Of a stretch of 33,698 nt of DNA, positions 10,828 to 33,698 are shown in pieces; the first letter of the stretch is position 1; each line of letters opens with the position of its first letter. The notes under the pieces were generated by a model. The model was not told the DNA's origin. It made no database searches and worked only from the letters and a program-made list of their open reading frames with translations. The DNA is from a virus, in the IMG/VR virus record IMGVR_UViG_3300044624_003061, positions 1 through 33,698 of that record; one strand, 5' to 3'. A program made the position numbers and the translations under genes.

Positions 10828-12004
10828 GGATATAGGTTCGGGAAGAACCTTCTCCGACAAGCGTGAACATGCCGGTTTGAACTAGCTCTTGAATGCAAGA
10901 GTTCAAGTGCTGCGGCGCTACGTCTTGAAGCAGCTTGCGTTTAAGCGTAAGCTCTGAGAGGCCCTTCGGGTATTCTAGCTTCGCCCAAGACCATGCGTTC
11001 TGCAGCGCGCCGATCAGCGGGTTTGTCCCGAAGTGCTCGAATGCGCCCGCGGCAGATGCTTCGGAACCAAGCAGCAGCTCCTTTGCACGTTCCGCATGTG
11101 CGAGAGTAATCTCCTTACTTGAAGACTCACTTGCGGAAATAATCATCGCCAGCTTCGTAAGGTGGAACCAGCGCCGGGGGATATACTCCGCCATCTTTGC
11201 TTCCGACGGTATCGGCTTGATGCCTTCATCAATCCAGGTCTGGAACGCGCGCCCTGCATCTGCTGAGAACGTAAACGCGCCGGACAGGTTATGAATGTCC
11301 CGAAGATCAAAAAGCAGCGAAGCGTAATCCGGCGCTTCCCGCTGAAGCGGCACGCCATCAGCATCGAACAGCTTCGGCAGCCGAACCTCATCTGAATAAA
11401 TAATGTTCAGCCGTGCGGTAAAGCCAAGTCCGATCGCGGCGTTGCCGAAGTTTTCCGCCAGCGTCTTCGGGGTAATCCCGCCGATCATTGTAAGGCAAAG
11501 ATTTTCAATCTTGTCCTCATCGCGGGAAAGCGTCTGGTAGCTCCACTGCGACGCGCAATCATAGAAGTCCGTCAGAAGGATCGTGAAGTCTTTGTCGTTC
11601 GGGCGGACAAGCGTTGAAAGCTCCGAGATGAAAGCCGCGTACGCGCACTGCTTGTAGAACGCATCATGTGGAAGGGAGAACATTCGGTAGCTAAGCGAAA
11701 GGTTCTTGATGAAGCGTTCTGCGGTGCAGCGTGCTGGGGAAAGAAAAACATTCTCACCAAGCTGCGGAAGAAGATCCCGCGCAGGGGAAATAGAAATGCT
11801 TTTCCCAATGCCCGGCGGGCCAACGAGCGCCACGAAGAGATTCGGAAAGATCCTTGTGGAATTAAGATCAATCCAGCACTTCCGTTGAAGAGCAGAGCTT
11901 ACTGTTGCAAGGGCAGTCCACCGACGGTAGATCTCTGGGGCATTAGTCTTACTTCCCAGCGATGTGAAGCTTTCGATCCAAGAACGATGTTGGCGCGGGA
12001 GCAT
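10814..12004 (-). CDS. DUF3987-type P-loop helicase/primase-like ATPase
   Basis: 396 residues. N-terminal motif APEIYRRWTALATVSSALQRKCW then a strand PNLFVALV leading to Walker A GPPGIGKS (62-69). An acidic Walker B-like site is at AAFISELSTL (E128), a sensor-like strand at MIGGITP (173-179) and an Arg at 198 (FTARLNIIYSDE). This architecture is typical of the DUF3987 family found as replicative helicase or helicase-loader proteins in phages and plasmids. The C-terminal 70 residues look like a winged helix. It starts 56 bases inside the polymerase gene, so translation is probably coupled. Inferred to unwind DNA for the adjacent polymerase. Confidence 0.7.
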   Translation of the reverse strand: MLPRQHRSWIESFTSLGSKTNAPEIYRRWTALATVSSALQRKCWIDLNSTRIFPNLFVALVGPPGIGKSISISPARDLLPQLGENVFLSPARCTAERFIKNLSLSYRMFSLPHDAFYKQCAYAAFISELSTLVRPNDKDFTILLTDFYDCASQWSYQTLSRDEDKIENLCLTMIGGITPKTLAENFGNAAIGLGFTARLNIIYSDEVRLPKLFDADGVPLQREAPDYASLLFDLRDIHNLSGAFTFSADAGRAFQTWIDEGIKPIPSEAKMAEYIPRRWFHLTKLAMIISASESSSKEITLAHAERAKELLLGSEASAAGAFEHFGTNPLIGALQNAWSWAKLEYPKGLSELTLKRKLLQDVAPQHLNSCIQELVQTGMFTLVGEGSSRTYIPKVQ

Positions 12005-13505
12005 CTCGTGTATCAGAGCCTTTCCACTTCATAAGTCCGTGGGGATTTTCTTTCGAGTGGAACTTCCCCCAATTCCATCCGACGGCGGCTTCAGTGTTGA
12101 TTATGCATTCTCTGCCGTGGATGGTAACGGGGACTTTAAGAAGCTCTGCAACCTTTGGGATAAGCCAGGACTCGTCTTCGGGGCGGTATTGAAACTTGAT
12201 GGAGTCATGAACCTGAGTAAGCAGTTGTATTGGTCCAGCATCGCGCACGAAAGAGTCAAGGTTTTTCCAGACATTGTAAAAGCCTAGGTTAAGGATATCG
12301 CCGATGGAAGACTGCGGCGAGTAAGCAATCGCACTCTTTACCGTGTCGTTATCCCAAGGGCGGCCTGGGAAGAAGCACCGCCGACCAAGCGGAGTTGTAA
12401 TGCTTCGGTCTTTCGCGAGCGCCAGCCGCACGGAGTTCTGCCATTGGCGGATCTCTGGAAACGCTTTGAAGTAAGCGTGCTGGAAAGACTCTGCGCCTTC
12501 CCGCGGGATCTTGAGATGCATCGAAAGCACCGCAGGCGATCCGCCGTAGTTGCTTCCGTGGCCTCCCCGCTTCGCCATATCGCGGTAGGAGAAATGCCGG
12601 TAGAACGGCTGTTCCGCGATCTTGCGAGGTTCATTGGTTCCTGGGGGAAATCTATCGGGCCAGACGAGCATTGTTGGTGTAGTATGTAGATCGCTTGAAA
12701 GGCAAGCGCGTAGGTAATTGTCGCCCCAAAGGAGTGCCAAATACGCGACAAGCTTTGACTCCGCCTGCTCAAGATCGAATTGCGCGAACTTCAAACCTGC
12801 GTCAGGAACAAAGACTCGGCGCATCTCATCAGAGATATTCTGTAGGTTTGTCCCGCCTCCGAAGGCGGACTCGTTGCTTGACCAGCGACCTGAAAGCGTG
12901 CCCGCGACTTGATACGAGCAGTGCATCCGGTTAGAACCTTGCGACGCAAGCAGCACCTGGATTTGCTTATCGCAATCGCGGATTGAAAGAATAAGATCGC
13001 AGAACGGCTTTGCCTTGGGAAGCTTCTGAAGCTTTTCCAGCGCCTCTCGGTTCGTCGTGATCGTTTCTTCTTTAGTCTGCCGGTTGAAGTTTTTGATTGC
13101 CGGGATTGCAAGGTGCTCGTAGAAGAGCGCTTGAAGCTGCTGCGGGGAGTTCGGATTGATCCCGAAGTGTTTCTTGTGCTTCGGATCGAAGTATGGCTCG
13201 AGCCCAAGACCTTCAGTCGTCAAGCGGAAGAACGTCTGTTCGCATCGCGCACGCTCTTCGCGCAGATCAGCTAGCAACGAAAGCACACGATTAGAGTCAA
13301 GCCGCACGCCACGGTTCATCAGCGTGAACGCAGGCCCTTGCATCGTGCGAGACATGTCGTAGGCGAAGCCTGCTTCGGGGATCTTCGGGGCAAGCTTCTC
13401 AAAGACTTCTAAAGTGATGCAGCAATCGAGCGCGTTATACGCCCAATACTGCTGCATCGGGTTCAGCTTGCTTACGTCGAGAGACGCCGATTCAAGAACT
13501 CGCAT
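11949..13505 (-). CDS. Family A DNA polymerase, polymerase half with only Exo III motif
   Basis: 518 residues. Motif A is FAQFDLEQAE (D244, E249). Motif B is RDMAKRGGHGSNYGG (R308, K312, Y320). Motif C is QVHDSI (D434); the usual Glu after the catalytic Asp is Ser here. The N-terminus begins abruptly with QYWAYNALDCCITLE, which is the third motif (Y23, D27) of a 3'-5' exonuclease domain. Exo I and II are missing here but present at the end of the gene at 14069-15094, so the proofreading domain is split over two genes. Start is a TAATG overlap with the upstream gene. It should copy phage DNA in the cytoplasm with the helicase that follows. Confidence 0.9.
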   Translation of the reverse strand: MRVLESASLDVSKLNPMQQYWAYNALDCCITLEVFEKLAPKIPEAGFAYDMSRTMQGPAFTLMNRGVRLDSNRVLSLLADLREERARCEQTFFRLTTEGLGLEPYFDPKHKKHFGINPNSPQQLQALFYEHLAIPAIKNFNRQTKEETITTNREALEKLQKLPKAKPFCDLILSIRDCDKQIQVLLASQGSNRMHCSYQVAGTLSGRWSSNESAFGGGTNLQNISDEMRRVFVPDAGLKFAQFDLEQAESKLVAYLALLWGDNYLRACLSSDLHTTPTMLVWPDRFPPGTNEPRKIAEQPFYRHFSYRDMAKRGGHGSNYGGSPAVLSMHLKIPREGAESFQHAYFKAFPEIRQWQNSVRLALAKDRSITTPLGRRCFFPGRPWDNDTVKSAIAYSPQSSIGDILNLGFYNVWKNLDSFVRDAGPIQLLTQVHDSIKFQYRPEDESWLIPKVAELLKVPVTIHGRECIINTEAAVGWNWGKFHSKENPHGLMKWKGSDTRDAPAPTSFLDRKLHIAGK

Positions 13506-14068: not shown

Positions 14069-15094
14069 TCATTCATCCCTTTTGAGGTCGTGGGTGTCAC
14101 CGCCACGGACACGCCAACGTTTCCAAGCCCTGTCATTGGCATAGATTGATCCTAAGAAGTCCAGCCCTTTCTGCAAAGCCGGATAAAGCGAGTGGTGGAG
14201 GAGCATCGTATCGTGCAGGAAGTTTACCACGGGGATTTGATACTTAAAGAGATATTGCACGTCATAGAGGCCGTTCTGCGCGATTTTTATCGCAGGCGAA
14301 GCGCAGATCTTCCTTACGCACTTGTAGGCGAATACCTCGTCTTCTTGGCTCCAGTAGTTTTCATTCCCGAACCAGAAGGGAATAACGAAGGACTCTTCCC
14401 GGTTCGGCGCGAAGCCGATGCAGGTGATTTGCTTCGCGCGAGTCTCGATATCGAACGCAAGAAACTCTTCCGCGCAAAGCCGTTCAGTCCAAAACTCCAT
14501 ATCGCGCCGAGTCGGTTCGATGTAGATTTTTCGGTTGATAAGATCTGCGAGAGGGGACTCAGCTTCGCGGACAGTCTTAAGGAAGTCCGCTACAACTGAA
14601 GGGCGCCATTCGTAATTTGCGAGCACGCCATTGATCGCGTAGGTCGGAATGACTTTTGTTGTCTTGTAGAAGTGCAGCGCGCCGCGGAGCTTGCCGATGC
14701 CGGAGACTCCGCAAAGCGACGCAAGCGGAATATTCCCAAGCGCCACGATCACATTCGGAGCGCACTTCGCAATCGTATTTGCAAGGCGCTCAAGCGCGGG
14801 CTGCACCAGCTTCGGATCAGCTACACCCTTCTTGCAAGGGATCGCACGCCAGGGGCGGAGCAAATCTACCGAAGCCTTGATGCTCTTTCGGTCAATTGCC
14901 CAGGCATTGATATCGCCATTTGGCGGGCGAGTCGTAAAAATAGAAGTGATCTCAACGTTGCTACGCGAAAGCCCCACGTCGGCAAGGATACTATCGAGTT
15001 CCTTGCCCGGCGCGGAGCCCATGCTTAGAAGAGTCCCCTGCCGAAGATCGGCCTCGGCAGGGAAGTCCACGACAAGAAGGATCTTAGCTGTCAT
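14069..15094 (-). CDS. Fusion: uracil-DNA-glycosylase-like domain + Exo I/II half of 3'-5' exonuclease
   Basis: 341 residues. Residues 1-180 follow the family 4/5 UDG plan as seen in phages: LLVVDFPAE, GKELDSILADVGLSRSNVEITS, RPPNGD, NVIVALGNIPLASLCG, GKLRG, VIPTY. The catalytic HP motif expected after PTY is replaced (PTYAINGVL), so glycosylase activity is doubtful. Residues about 205-320 are a DnaQ-like exonuclease: Exo I FLAFDIET (D215, E217), Exo II IAQNGLYDVQYL (N274, D278). The gene stops after the loop WKRWRV (324-329); the missing Exo III motif opens the polymerase gene 564 bases further on. UDG-exonuclease-polymerase fusions are known in phages; here the chain is cut. Confidence 0.8.
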   Translation of the reverse strand: MTAKILLVVDFPAEADLRQGTLLSMGSAPGKELDSILADVGLSRSNVEITSIFTTRPPNGDINAWAIDRKSIKASVDLLRPWRAIPCKKGVADPKLVQPALERLANTIAKCAPNVIVALGNIPLASLCGVSGIGKLRGALHFYKTTKVIPTYAINGVLANYEWRPSVVADFLKTVREAESPLADLINRKIYIEPTRRDMEFWTERLCAEEFLAFDIETRAKQITCIGFAPNREESFVIPFWFGNENYWSQEDEVFAYKCVRKICASPAIKIAQNGLYDVQYLFKYQIPVVNFLHDTMLLHHSLYPALQKGLDFLGSIYANDRAWKRWRVRGGDTHDLKRDE

Positions 15095-15284
15095 TCGCGT
15101 CGAGCTTATTAATTATCTTTTGCAGATATACCGCGAAGTCTAAGGCTTCTTCTTTTGCGTGCTGAAGCCACGCGCGGAGTGCAAGCGGACTGTCTGCAAC
15201 CGAAATGCCATACTTGAGCATACCCGCTTTTGCACGGGCGTCAAGCTCTGTTTGAAGCTGCGCCGTAATTGGATCAGTCGGCAT
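15084..15284 (-). CDS. MazG-like nucleotide pyrophosphohydrolase-type small protein
   Basis: 66 residues. Motif KYG (24-26), then WLQHAKEEALDFAVYLQKII, resembles the single-helix-pair core of small phage MazG-like/dNTP pyrophosphohydrolase proteins (KYG...HxxEExxDAxxYL). Here the usual E-D-A is E-D-F. Its start overlaps the end of the methyltransferase gene and its end overlaps the UDG-like gene, placing it in the replication operon. It may trim unusual nucleotides or affect host alarmones; activity not certain. Confidence 0.65.
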   Translation of the reverse strand: MPTDPITAQLQTELDARAKAGMLKYGISVADSPLALRAWLQHAKEEALDFAVYLQKIINKLDANDS

Positions 15285-16644
15285 CAGATTTCTCCAGTTG
15301 CTTGTTCACGTAGTCAACGTGCTGCTCTTGCACATCGAAGCCCAGGCCAAGAGCAGCGCCGAGGTTCTTCGCAACGCGAAGCGCTGTTCCGCTGCCGCAA
15401 GTCGGATCGAGAATTCGAGTCGTCGGATCGACTACCATCTCAAGGAAGTGCGCCAGCATCGGCGCGGGCTTTTCCGAAAGGTGATATTCGCCGGTCGAGT
15501 TTGCCGTCGGGCCGGAGAAGCTTGCAGCCTTTACCTTCACGATCCGGTTGTCTCCGCGAGAGGCAAAGACCGCCATCTCATATGTGCGCCGCGGCCAGCG
15601 CCGAACATCAGGCGCGATACCTGCGTTGTCGCTCTTGTGCCAGATCAGCGGGAACTCGCTTACAGCCCAGCCGTAATGCGCGAAGCGTGAAGCCAGCTTT
15701 CCGTAGTTTCGCGGCGTGAGCCAGAAGATGCAATGCGCCGCATCAGCAATGAAGCGATCCTGGTTATCGAAAAAAGCCCTGCAAAGCTTGTCAAAAAGCT
15801 CCGGCGAGTCCGGGTATCGCTTGTCGATCGTGTCCCAGCGCACGCCGGAGTTTTGCAGCGGCGCCTTGTCCATGTTGAGTCCGTAAGGGAAATCGCAATG
15901 GATGAGGTTGAAACGCATTCCGATATAGTTGGGCGCCCACTCGAGGAAGTCCTGGGCTACGGCACGGAAGGGGCGGGGTGCCGACATAGGGCGGGGCGCG
16001 GCAGGGAAGGGCGTGGGCGGCGCCGTGGTGCCGGGGGGTGCTACGGGTGCGGGCGGCGCGGGAAGCCCTAGGGCGGCGGCTACGGCGGCTATCGGGGGCG
16101 GTGCAGTAGGAGTCTCTCCCGCTCGCAACATTTCAAAAGCTGCAGAAGTCTTCCGCTGCACAACCGTCTGATACATCTGATAGGCAGAAGACCAAGAAGG
16201 TGCTTTTGCAAGATCAGAATTTACAAGTAGCGCTTCCGCAACGGTAATCATCCGGCTGACCGTCTGGCCGGGAAGACCAAGAGCCTTACCTACGGCTTCG
16301 TTCGGGGCTTTCAGCGTCTGCGCGTATTTCGCAACAGCGGCGACTTCTTCTTGCCACTCCAGCTGCTTCCGCCGAATGTTTTCTTCAAGCTCGATAAGGA
16401 CCAGCTCGGAGTCAGAAAGATCCGACTTGAAAACTGCGTCAATAGAAGGCCAGCCAAGCTTCTTTGCAGCAGTGAGGCGACGTTCACCTGCGATAAGGGT
16501 GAAGCGGCCTTCGGCTTCTGCGACGACAATCGGCGTGATCTGCCCAATCGAAGACGCAAGGCTATTCGCAAGAGAGTTGATATCGCCAAGGTCTTTCCGC
16601 TGGCGCTCGGGTGGAACGTCGATCAGCTCGATAGAGATTAGCAC
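15274..16644 (-). CDS. ParB-type N-terminal domain fused to DNA methyltransferase
   Basis: 456 residues from a GTG start with AAGG 8 bases upstream. Residues 1-100 are a ParB/sulfiredoxin-like nuclease or NTP-binding domain (IAGERRLTAAKKLGW, 51-65, and ELEENIRRKQL). An HTH follows (about 116-139, EAVGKALGLPGQTVSRMI). A Pro/Ala linker (180-225) leads to a beta-class amino-methyltransferase: motif IV IHCDFPYG (251-255, DFPY rather than DPPY) and motif I LDPTCGSGT (413-420). Probably methylates adenine or cytosine in phage DNA, with the ParB/HTH part setting target choice. Whether the DFPY variant is active cannot be told. Overlaps the MazG-like gene. Confidence 0.85.
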   Translation of the reverse strand: MLISIELIDVPPERQRKDLGDINSLANSLASSIGQITPIVVAEAEGRFTLIAGERRLTAAKKLGWPSIDAVFKSDLSDSELVLIELEENIRRKQLEWQEEVAAVAKYAQTLKAPNEAVGKALGLPGQTVSRMITVAEALLVNSDLAKAPSWSSAYQMYQTVVQRKTSAAFEMLRAGETPTAPPPIAAVAAALGLPAPPAPVAPPGTTAPPTPFPAAPRPMSAPRPFRAVAQDFLEWAPNYIGMRFNLIHCDFPYGLNMDKAPLQNSGVRWDTIDKRYPDSPELFDKLCRAFFDNQDRFIADAAHCIFWLTPRNYGKLASRFAHYGWAVSEFPLIWHKSDNAGIAPDVRRWPRRTYEMAVFASRGDNRIVKVKAASFSGPTANSTGEYHLSEKPAPMLAHFLEMVVDPTTRILDPTCGSGTALRVAKNLGAALGLGFDVQEQHVDYVNKQLEKSDAD

Positions 16645-18947: not shown

Positions 18948-19031
18948 TGGTGCCCGCTGTCGGACTCGAACCGACACTCCGAAGGAAGCGGAGCTTAAAT
19001 CCGCTGCGTCTGCCAATTTCGCCAAGCGGGC
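18948..19031 (-). tRNA. tRNA-Leu(UAA), CCA encoded
   Basis: An 84-base class II tRNA on the minus strand. Acceptor stem GCCCGCT pairs fully with AGCGGGC, followed by A73 and an encoded CCA (18950-18948). D stem GCG/CGC, anticodon stem GCGGA/TCCGC with loop TTTAAGC (anticodon UAA), a short variable arm (TCC-TTC-GGA) and T stem GTCGG/CCGAC around TTCGAGT. It sits 6 bases after the stop of the 19038-19265 gene and 18 bases before the nuclease gene. It would read UUA (and UUG by wobble). Confidence 0.95.
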
Positions 19032-31812: not shown

Positions 31813-31840
31813 TGGGGCTCGCAAAGCTGGAGGAAGAAAT

Positions 31841-31874
31841 TAGGCGCCTACGGCTTATAGTCCATAGGCGCCTA
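31841..31874 (-). repeat. Hairpin element copy B
   Basis: Same design and size as copy A (27291-27324): arms 31841-31853 and 31862-31874, 8-base loop. All 13 positions pair in the minus-strand RNA, with one G-U. It lies in the gap between the 31916-32113 gene stop and the 31812 start and is followed by AATTTCTT. Arms hold the palindrome TAGGCGCCTA twice. Confidence 0.7.
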
Positions 31875-31915
31875 TACGCTCGACTATTCCTTCCTTCTAT
31901 CTAATCCTGTTCTCG

Positions 31916-32113
31916 TTACTTCTTAGAGGGCTCCATATCGCAAAGCGCAACGCCACCGCGCGCGTAGTATCGCTTCGCGCTTTCTCGGGTATTCGCGTTG
32001 TGCCGCTCGCGATTATTAATCTGCCAAGCCTTCCCAAGCGGAAGCTCAAGCAGGAAATCAATCTCGCGGTAGCTCTTGCCTTGGCGCCGAAGCGCTGCAA
32101 CCTTATCCTTCAT
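31916..32113 (-). CDS. HTH-like protein, homing-endonuclease-associated type (65 aa)
   Basis: KVAALRRQGKSYREIDFLLELPLGKAWQINNRERHNANTRESAKRY: a short helix-turn-helix (LRRQGKSYREIDFLL) followed by a basic stretch, similar to DNA-binding tails of phage HNH proteins, without nuclease motif. GGAGG-AA-CCTCC before ATG 32113; overlaps the previous gene by 11 bases. Confidence 0.6.
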   Translation of the reverse strand: MKDKVAALRRQGKSYREIDFLLELPLGKAWQINNRERHNANTRESAKRYYARGGVALCDMEPSKK

Positions 32114-32495
32114 AGGGAGGTTCCTCCGCGTTGAGCGCCTCTGCGTAGATGTCGAGCACGTAGTCGATGGTCTCCTCGTCCGGGTGCTCGTAGAGGCTAT
32201 CTACGTCCCAAGGCTGGCACAGGTCAGCCACAGCGTAGACTCTTATCGTGAAGTCTACCCAGCCGACGTAGCATCCGTGCTCGTCCATCTTGTGATATGA
32301 GCCAACGATGAGGTATTCAGCTCTTGGATTAAGCTCTTCGTTTTGCCTTGGCTCGGGCTTGAGGTCGAAGCCGCTTCCGTTCGGCAGCGCCTCGATGCAG
32401 CGGTTGAGTCGCGCTTGAATGCGCTCGTGCACTTCCGCATTTGGCTGGCGACATAGCGAATTGAGACAGTTTGCGATTGCTGCGTAGAGTTTCAT
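32103..32495 (-). CDS. Conserved phage protein with GSGFD and YHxMDExGxYxGW motifs
   Basis: 130 residues. YAAIANCLNSL, ARLNRCIEALPNGSGFDLKPE, YLIVGSYHKMDEHGCYVGWVDFTIRVYAV, TIDYVLDIYAEAL match a family I recognise from many phages; function unknown. TAATG overlap with the upstream gene at 32495. Confidence 0.75.
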   Translation of the reverse strand: MKLYAAIANCLNSLCRQPNAEVHERIQARLNRCIEALPNGSGFDLKPEPRQNEELNPRAEYLIVGSYHKMDEHGCYVGWVDFTIRVYAVADLCQPWDVDSLYEHPDEETIDYVLDIYAEALNAEEPPYEG

Positions 32496-32943: not shown

Positions 32944-33185
32944 TAGAAGGGCACTTTCGCATTAGGGTTGCGCGTTTGCGCAAAGCGCAGCCAGACTGCG
33001 CGAAACGAGTTGTGAGCCTGTTGCGCGCACCGACGATCCGCGGTTGCTTCCGCCGCTAGAGTGCGGAACGCAACGGCGATATCCTGCGTTGGCGCGAAGT
33101 CCGCCAGTAGCCGAAGCGCCTCAATGTCCTCTCTTATCGGCCCTGCGTAGGGGCTGCCGGAAACCTGCTCGCGAAAGTTCGGCAT
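32943..33185 (-). CDS. Hypothetical protein (80 aa)
   Basis: ATG 33185 in a TAATG overlap with the upstream stop. SGSPYAGPIREDIEALRLLADF followed by a helical, Ala-rich C-terminus (AFRTLAAEATADRRCAQQAH). No family recognised. Confidence 0.55.
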   Translation of the reverse strand: MPNFREQVSGSPYAGPIREDIEALRLLADFAPTQDIAVAFRTLAAEATADRRCAQQAHNSFRAVWLRFAQTRNPNAKVPF

Positions 33186-33475
33186 TAGAAGTAGCTCCCG
33201 AAGTCGCGGCGGTTGACTCTGAGTGCGATTGTAAGCCAGTCCGGCAGCATAGTGTTTGGCTTCCAAGTCGGAAGGCTGCCATGCGCGAGTATGTGCTGAC
33301 GGCAGGCAAGGCGCACATACTCGTAGTTATTCGCCTCGTGCTGGCGGCGCGGCCGGTCGTAATTCGGGCGCATACCGAGAGCAACCTCGGTATAGGCTGC
33401 GCGGGCCGCTAGTATGTGCGGATTGTTTGGCCCGAGGTTGTGCCCGCAGATGTTTTTGGTTTGGACTCTGTTCAT
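33185..33475 (-). CDS. Hypothetical protein (96 aa) downstream of the hammerhead
   Basis: ATG 33475 has GGAG 10 bases upstream, within the 56-base leader left by ribozyme cleavage (after 33532). NRVQTKNICGHNLGPNNPHILAARAAYTEV, PRRQHEANNYEYVRLACRQHI; rich in Asn, His, Arg. No family recognised. The longer frame from 33556 would translate the ribozyme itself and is not supported. Confidence 0.6.
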   Translation of the reverse strand: MNRVQTKNICGHNLGPNNPHILAARAAYTEVALGMRPNYDRPRRQHEANNYEYVRLACRQHILAHGSLPTWKPNTMLPDWLTIALRVNRRDFGSYF

Positions 33476-33497
33476 TAGGGAAAGGCTCCGTGTCGGG

Positions 33498-33555
33498 CGG
33501 CTCATCAGCCGGGCTTGCCCAGGGCTTCCGGGACAGGCTTTCGCCTGTTTCGCCA
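33498..33555 (-). ncRNA. Type II hammerhead ribozyme
   Basis: All core bases are present on the minus strand. C3-A9 is CTGATGA (33508-33502). G12-A14 is GAA (33551-33549), followed by A15.1 (33548). Stem III is ACAGGC/GCCTGT (33548-33543 with 33538-33533) closed by a GAAA loop, ending in U16.1 (33533) and C17 (33532): a GUC cleavage triplet. Stem I is CCGG (33531-33528) with CCGG (33512-33509), with an inner GCC/GGC stem (33525-33523 with 33519-33517). Stem II is GCCG (33501-33498) with TGGC (33555-33552), including the conserved G10.1-C11.1 pair. Stem II is the open stem, hence type II. Predicted cut between 33532 and 33531, in the leader of the 33185-33475 gene. Confidence 0.88.
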
Positions 33556-33569
33556 TGCGTCATAGCGCG

Positions 33570-33695
33570 TTAGGTGCTTTTGTATTCCAAGGCAATCAGG
33601 CGAAAGTCATCCCAGGTAGTAGGAAAGGACTTTTCTAGTTTGCGCTCAGCGTTATCTATATCCACTCTGCACAAGCTGAAGCTGCGTGTTTGCAT
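33570..33695 (-). CDS. Short ORF before the ribozyme, possibly 5' truncated
   Basis: ATG 33695 to TAA 33572-33570 gives 41 residues (CRVDIDNAERKLEKSFPTTWDD, then FRLIALEYKST). The frame is open to the window edge, so the true start may lie outside. It ends 15 bases before the hammerhead stem II. Composition is protein-like but no family is recognised. Confidence 0.4.
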   Translation of the reverse strand: MQTRSFSLCRVDIDNAERKLEKSFPTTWDDFRLIALEYKST

Positions 33696-33698
33696 ATA

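Follow-up and report, generated by a model that had tools for sequence, protein, structure and literature searches.

A complete type II hammerhead ribozyme with a full consensus core lies at positions 33498–33555 on the minus strand of IMG/VR record IMGVR_UViG_3300044624_003061, a virus record of 33,698 bases that makes up, in full, the stretch of DNA analyzed here and called the window. The ribozyme sits on the sense strand between two co-directional genes of a double-stranded DNA phage, with an upstream stop codon at 33570, the ribozyme at 33555–33498, and a downstream ATG at 33475. We consider it likely that it splits the polycistronic transcript of this operon and at the same time provides a standard leader for the downstream gene.

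In the window phage, the plus strand carries genes of late type and the minus strand those for replication, the latter comprising a DNA polymerase in two open reading frames (ORFs), a primase, a helicase, a Sak4-like annealing protein, and an exonuclease. None of the named phages is closely related to it. Its DNA polymerase is best matched in Caulobacter phage Kuura (36% identity), which has the same gene layout and in which the phage-built covariance model described below finds no hammerhead. A search among named phages gave no match to the hammerhead region at the DNA level. The two DNA polymerase ORFs (11949–13505 and 14069–15094, minus strand) match consecutive parts of phrog_17 and are separated by two small ORFs, an arrangement similar to that in Kuura. 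Elsewhere on the minus strand, a single ORF at 15274–16644 joins a ParB-like domain to a DNA methyltransferase domain, a tRNA gene with a long variable arm (18951–19031, 54.6 bits in Rfam) appears leucine-like by eye, and the palindrome TAGGCGCCTA occurs twice at 31838–31880, in a gap between small genes, where it may form a hairpin or a protein site.

The hammerhead is located near the right end of the record, where small minus-strand genes follow one another, most of them with overlaps of a few bases. The 94-base gap between the stop codon and the ATG is unusually large for this gene run, and most of it is occupied by the hammerhead. The upstream gene (33570–33698), of which only the 3′ part is present, open at the record end, terminates at 33572–33570, 14 bases ahead of the ribozyme. 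The downstream gene (33185–33475) encodes 96 amino acids with no family found, its ATG starting 56 bases past the predicted cut and 10 bases after GGAG (33486–33489), a likely ribosome-binding site judging from the sequence. The first-pass annotation, made from the letters alone, had given the same stop and start coordinates and had described a 56-base leader that retains its ribosome-binding site after cleavage, as it does here; it had also placed the motif between small early genes, which are indeed small and co-directional, while we infer "early" from gene order and the comparison with Kuura. Neither the 96-aa protein nor the product of a 130-aa gene at 32103–32495 has relatives in the collections searched; the sole weak match of the former is to a distant record (G017; E = 0.003, 30% over 40 amino acids) that lacks a hammerhead.

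Read 5′ to 3′ on the minus strand, the motif opens with the stem II 5′ strand UGGC (33555–33552) and GAAA from G12 to A15.1 (33551–33548), continues into a 6-bp stem III, ACAGGC/GCCUGU (33548–33543 with 33538–33533), which includes the A15.1–U16.1 pair and is closed by a GAAA tetraloop (33542–33539), and then reaches the predicted cleavage site between C17 (33532) and 33531, placed by the core register of GUC followed by C. Beyond this site are the stem I hairpin CCGG/CCGG (33531–33528 with 33512–33509), the core CUGAUGA (33508–33502), and the stem II 3′ strand GCCG (33501–33498). Every base of the consensus core is present (C3 U4 G5 A6 N7 G8 A9, G12 A13 A14, A15.1–U16.1, and H17), and the order of GAAA, stem III, GUC, stem I, CUGAUGA, and stem II, with loops capping stems I and III and stem II left open, is the type II permutation. 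All three stems have their core-adjacent pairs (G10.1–C11.1, C1.1–G2.1, and A15.1–U16.1), with lengths of 4, 4, and 6 bp for stems II, I, and III, respectively. The first-pass annotation had reported all core bases in permuted order at this site and a cut after C17 leaving a new 5′ end at 33531; the former is borne out by the sequence, the structural descriptor, and the phage-built model, and the predicted position of the latter agrees with the core register.

To place this copy among its kind, we compared it with two sets of phage hammerheads, both of which are samples: 194 non-redundant hammerheads, the window's included (set 1), and 139 that carry an additional U ahead of stem II, retrieved with a second pattern (set 2). 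The triplet GUC occurs in 179 of the 194 listed hammerheads of set 1, in which stem III is typically a hairpin with a median of 7 bp and a 4-base loop. Stem I of the window copy, at 4 bp, is short relative to the median of 7 bp in this set, and two inner G–C pairs are possible beyond an AA bulge, leaving the loop CCUGGGCAA. Nearly the same loop I is found in two other listed hammerheads, L087 (CCAGGGCAA) and L152 (CCTGGGCAA).

Several lines of detection converge on this site. A core pattern with flexible loops matched once in the window and in none of 100 shuffles, and a structural descriptor scan likewise returned a single site, with 500 dinucleotide-preserving shuffles yielding three loose matches, none as good. 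A covariance model trained on 65 phage hammerheads, the window's own excluded, scored the site at 45.2 bits (E = 3.8 × 10−10), and the runner-up at 10.6 bits, above which the window holds no further hammerhead. The seed sequences of this model were gathered with a pattern modelled on the core of the window site, so part of the 45.2-bit score reflects that core, while the contribution of the stems and spacing does not depend on the pattern. A significant covariance score, on which the first-pass annotation had staked its claim, was thus obtained with this model. The Rfam scan it had proposed gave a mixed outcome: Hammerhead_II (RF02276) did match, at 28.9 bits (E = 3 × 10−4, searching 211 bases against 4227 families), but under the 37-bit gathering score, and filters dropped the hammerhead from the whole-window scan. 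A routine scan therefore misses it. The gathering score is a bookkeeping threshold and not a structural criterion, and other listed hammerheads whose cores are intact, L218 (31.7 bits) being one, are likewise under it. Rfam matches to HCV_SL1412 and c-di-GMP-I-GGC on the same bases were far under their cut-offs and were rejected as chance.

A tertiary contact between loop I and the tail is predicted in the window hammerhead. Loop I contains UGGGC (33517–33521), complementary to GCCCG (33494–33498) directly after stem II, and the two would form a pseudoknot of 4 bp (GGGC:GCCC), or of 5 bp including a U–G pair, which the first-pass annotation missed. Most type II hammerheads have such a loop I:tail pseudoknot (Perreault et al. 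2011, PMC3088659). Of the 194 listed phage hammerheads, 61% show loop I and tail complementary over at least 4 bp, compared with 17–32% at shifted control places; a 4-base match on its own is a weak criterion, expected in ~20–30% of cases by chance. The first-pass annotation had instead used part of this tail for an outward extension of stem II past a 2 × 2 internal loop. The extension is formally possible, but it draws on the pseudoknot bases CCCG (33497–33494), for which pairing with UGGGC of loop I is more plausible, and we set it aside.

We asked how the position of the window hammerhead compares with that of other phage hammerheads, assigning gene starts by a simple score and not by a gene finder. 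Across set 1, 70% of the 194 listed hammerheads had an upstream stop codon between −10 and +12 relative to the ribozyme (control: 14%), and the first start with a ribosome-binding site fell 50–60 bases past the cut in 43% (control: 3%). A start codon followed within 130 bases in 191 of the 194, and the best-scored starts lay 50–65 bases past the cut in 128 of these 191, the value for the window being 56. Related sequences inflate these counts, and the peak persists when one hammerhead is taken per locus. Set 2 replicates the layout among its 139 listed hammerheads, with 104 of 135 starts at 50–70 bases and 81% of stops abutting. Among the 39 loci of the listed set with several hammerheads, none mixes strands. 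The 135 nearby downstream proteins of set 1 form 88 sequence clusters, and the layout is therefore not inherited along with one gene. An upstream stop against the ribozyme and a start mostly 45–70 bases past the cut is the rule, shared with more than 300 other phage hammerheads. The tight spacing could alternatively result from compact phage genomes that offer no other free room, with no need for a processing or leader role.

Under the reading we favor, the RNA would fold during transcription and cut itself once, after C17 (33532/33531). Hammerhead cleavage leaves a 2′,3′-cyclic phosphate on one product and a 5′-OH on the other. The upstream message would end in the GNRA-capped stem III hairpin (33533–33548) plus one base bearing the cyclic phosphate, and the downstream message would begin with a 5′-OH at the stem I hairpin, in which the loop I:tail pseudoknot could persist; GGAG would come next and, 56 bases past the cut, the ATG. 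Since both ends would be structured, this arrangement suits the splitting of an operon message into stable pieces together with a standard downstream leader. The most likely purpose would be to divide the polycistronic transcript into individual messages whose ends are structured, and the leader provided to the downstream gene would be comparable to that of the engineered RiboJ insulator.

Whether the RNA adopts the hammerhead fold is the main source of doubt. In the energy calculation, the minimum-energy fold is a competing pair of hairpins at 33498–33532 on the minus strand (CCCGG-AAGCC-CUGGG and CGGCU-GAUG-AGCCG) that buries the cleavage site and the core, and the hammerhead fold lies 5.8 kcal/mol above it with the pseudoknot left out of the energy. 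For members of the listed phage set, the lowest-energy fold is usually the hammerhead; the median gap is 0.1 kcal/mol, and only 2.6% reach 5.8. The element may thus be a real ribozyme that rests mostly in the two-hairpin fold and is slow, decaying, or a switch tipped by another factor or by a ribosome ending at 33570, which could cover stem II given that the stop lies so close ahead of the motif; the short stem I would fit this account as well. We regard it as unlikely, although it is the most serious of the alternatives: the calculation omits the pseudoknot and the stacked core, both of which favor the hammerhead, the core is perfect where neglect would erode it, and no relative is near enough to show that the competing fold is conserved. 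Self-cleavage of the window copy is, on balance of these predictions, likely but not assured.

Two further alternatives concern what the element is for, or whether it is a ribozyme at all. Stop codons are placed as tightly relative to the ribozyme as the start codons downstream of it, and the stem III hairpin typical of the listed set, together with the cyclic phosphate, could furnish the upstream gene with a protected 3′ end as a terminator substitute, the leader being a by-product. We hold this to be improbable, as the near-universal presence of a start codon within 130 bases indicates that these hammerheads are not placed at operon ends. It is very hard to credit that the site is a chance match or a piece of coding sequence without ribozyme function. 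The Rfam score under the cut-off and an ATG at 33556, whose frame is open through the motif and could lengthen the downstream ORF across the ribozyme, point that way; yet no ribosome-binding site precedes 33556, the descriptor, the core-pattern shuffles, and the phage-built model all single out this site, and the motif takes up a gap among closely packed genes, in exactly the position that its homologues have. Processing of the operon transcript remains the reading we prefer.

The window hammerhead adds one member to a type that has been known in phages since 2011, the year from which the processing idea also dates. Type II hammerheads are abundant in phages and prophages and cluster around single genes (2011, PMC3088659); for prophage copies that border single genes, Perreault et al. 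(2011, PMC3088659) proposed a role in transcript processing. When transcribed in vitro, tandem phage-type hammerheads cleave, and the A. tumefaciens set does so also in E. coli (PMC3088659). The first-pass annotation had singled out the placement as being of special interest; the hammerhead does lie between genes, but that precedent exists and the layout is the rule in the listed sets. As in the clustered phage and prophage hammerheads (PMC3088659, Figure 3), it sits between co-directional phage genes whose function is unknown and not constant, although only one copy occurs in the genome portion present here, whereas other phages have up to 11. HHphage of haloviruses HF1/HF2 (PMC3088659) similarly lies just upstream of a start codon in an early region, but it has core insertions and precedes a helicase, in contrast to the consensus core and uncharacterized 96-aa gene of the window. 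With RF02276 the window copy shares the permuted order, the full core, GUC, the A15.1–U16.1 and G10.1–C11.1 pairs, closed stems I and III, an open stem II, and the loop I:tail pseudoknot (predicted in the window). It differs in scoring 28.9 bits against the cut-off of 37, in its short stem I with an AA bulge, and in the junction of stem II and the pseudoknot, which either lacks a spacer base (stem II then being 3 bp) or has a G in place of the usual A or U, and for which L113 provides precedent.

Hammerheads also occur among phages related through the helicase. The phage-built model found a clear hammerhead in 6 of 80 records sharing this gene (26.5–38.4 bits), all on the helicase strand and 1.1–5.5 kb upstream of the helicase (7.0 kb in the window). 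The two canonical ones have start codons 54 and 58 bases past the cut, compared with 56 in the window. By this model, no hammerhead is seen in G003, the closest helicase relative (46% identity), or in most of the other records, many of which are fragments. An extra-U form, CUGAUGA-U-GGC, is present in three helicase relatives (L204, L206, and L207) and in L215 onwards; it is very common and often accompanied by pseudoknots of 5–7 bp. We considered and rejected a new core class for these variants, many of which Rfam Hammerhead_II scores above its cut-off. Separately, five ~50-kb records, from R4-like Streptomyces phages or similar to them (L101, which is Streptomyces phage Hank144, L154, L114, L174, and L193) each carry 9–11 type II hammerheads on one strand within ~8 kb of small genes; a short search of the open-access literature found no publication on hammerheads in Streptomyces phages.

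The function of hammerheads in bacteria and phages was still listed as open in a 2017 review (PMC6155905), and our short search of open-access papers found none stating the positional rule that we quantify. The engineered RiboJ ribozyme, used as an insulator, raises transcript and protein levels (PMC6206723). By analogy, it shares with the window element a self-cleaving ribozyme ahead of the ribosome-binding site, giving a fixed leader whatever lies upstream, with which the window is compatible by position; RiboJ is engineered, has a different structure, and is the one for which expression effects were measured. The window copy adds one more example, from a phage group that lacks near relatives among named phages, that a routine Rfam scan misses. 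More speculatively, and with considerable doubt, phage type II hammerheads including this one may be natural leader insulators, set after a stop codon and ahead of a ribosome-binding site at a near-fixed distance from unrelated genes and cutting compact operons into single-gene messages capped by hairpins at both ends, the bistable window copy being perhaps tunable. The positional survey, with a stop against the ribozyme, a start usually 50–60 bases past the cut, and 88 downstream protein clusters, makes the question of their function concretely testable.
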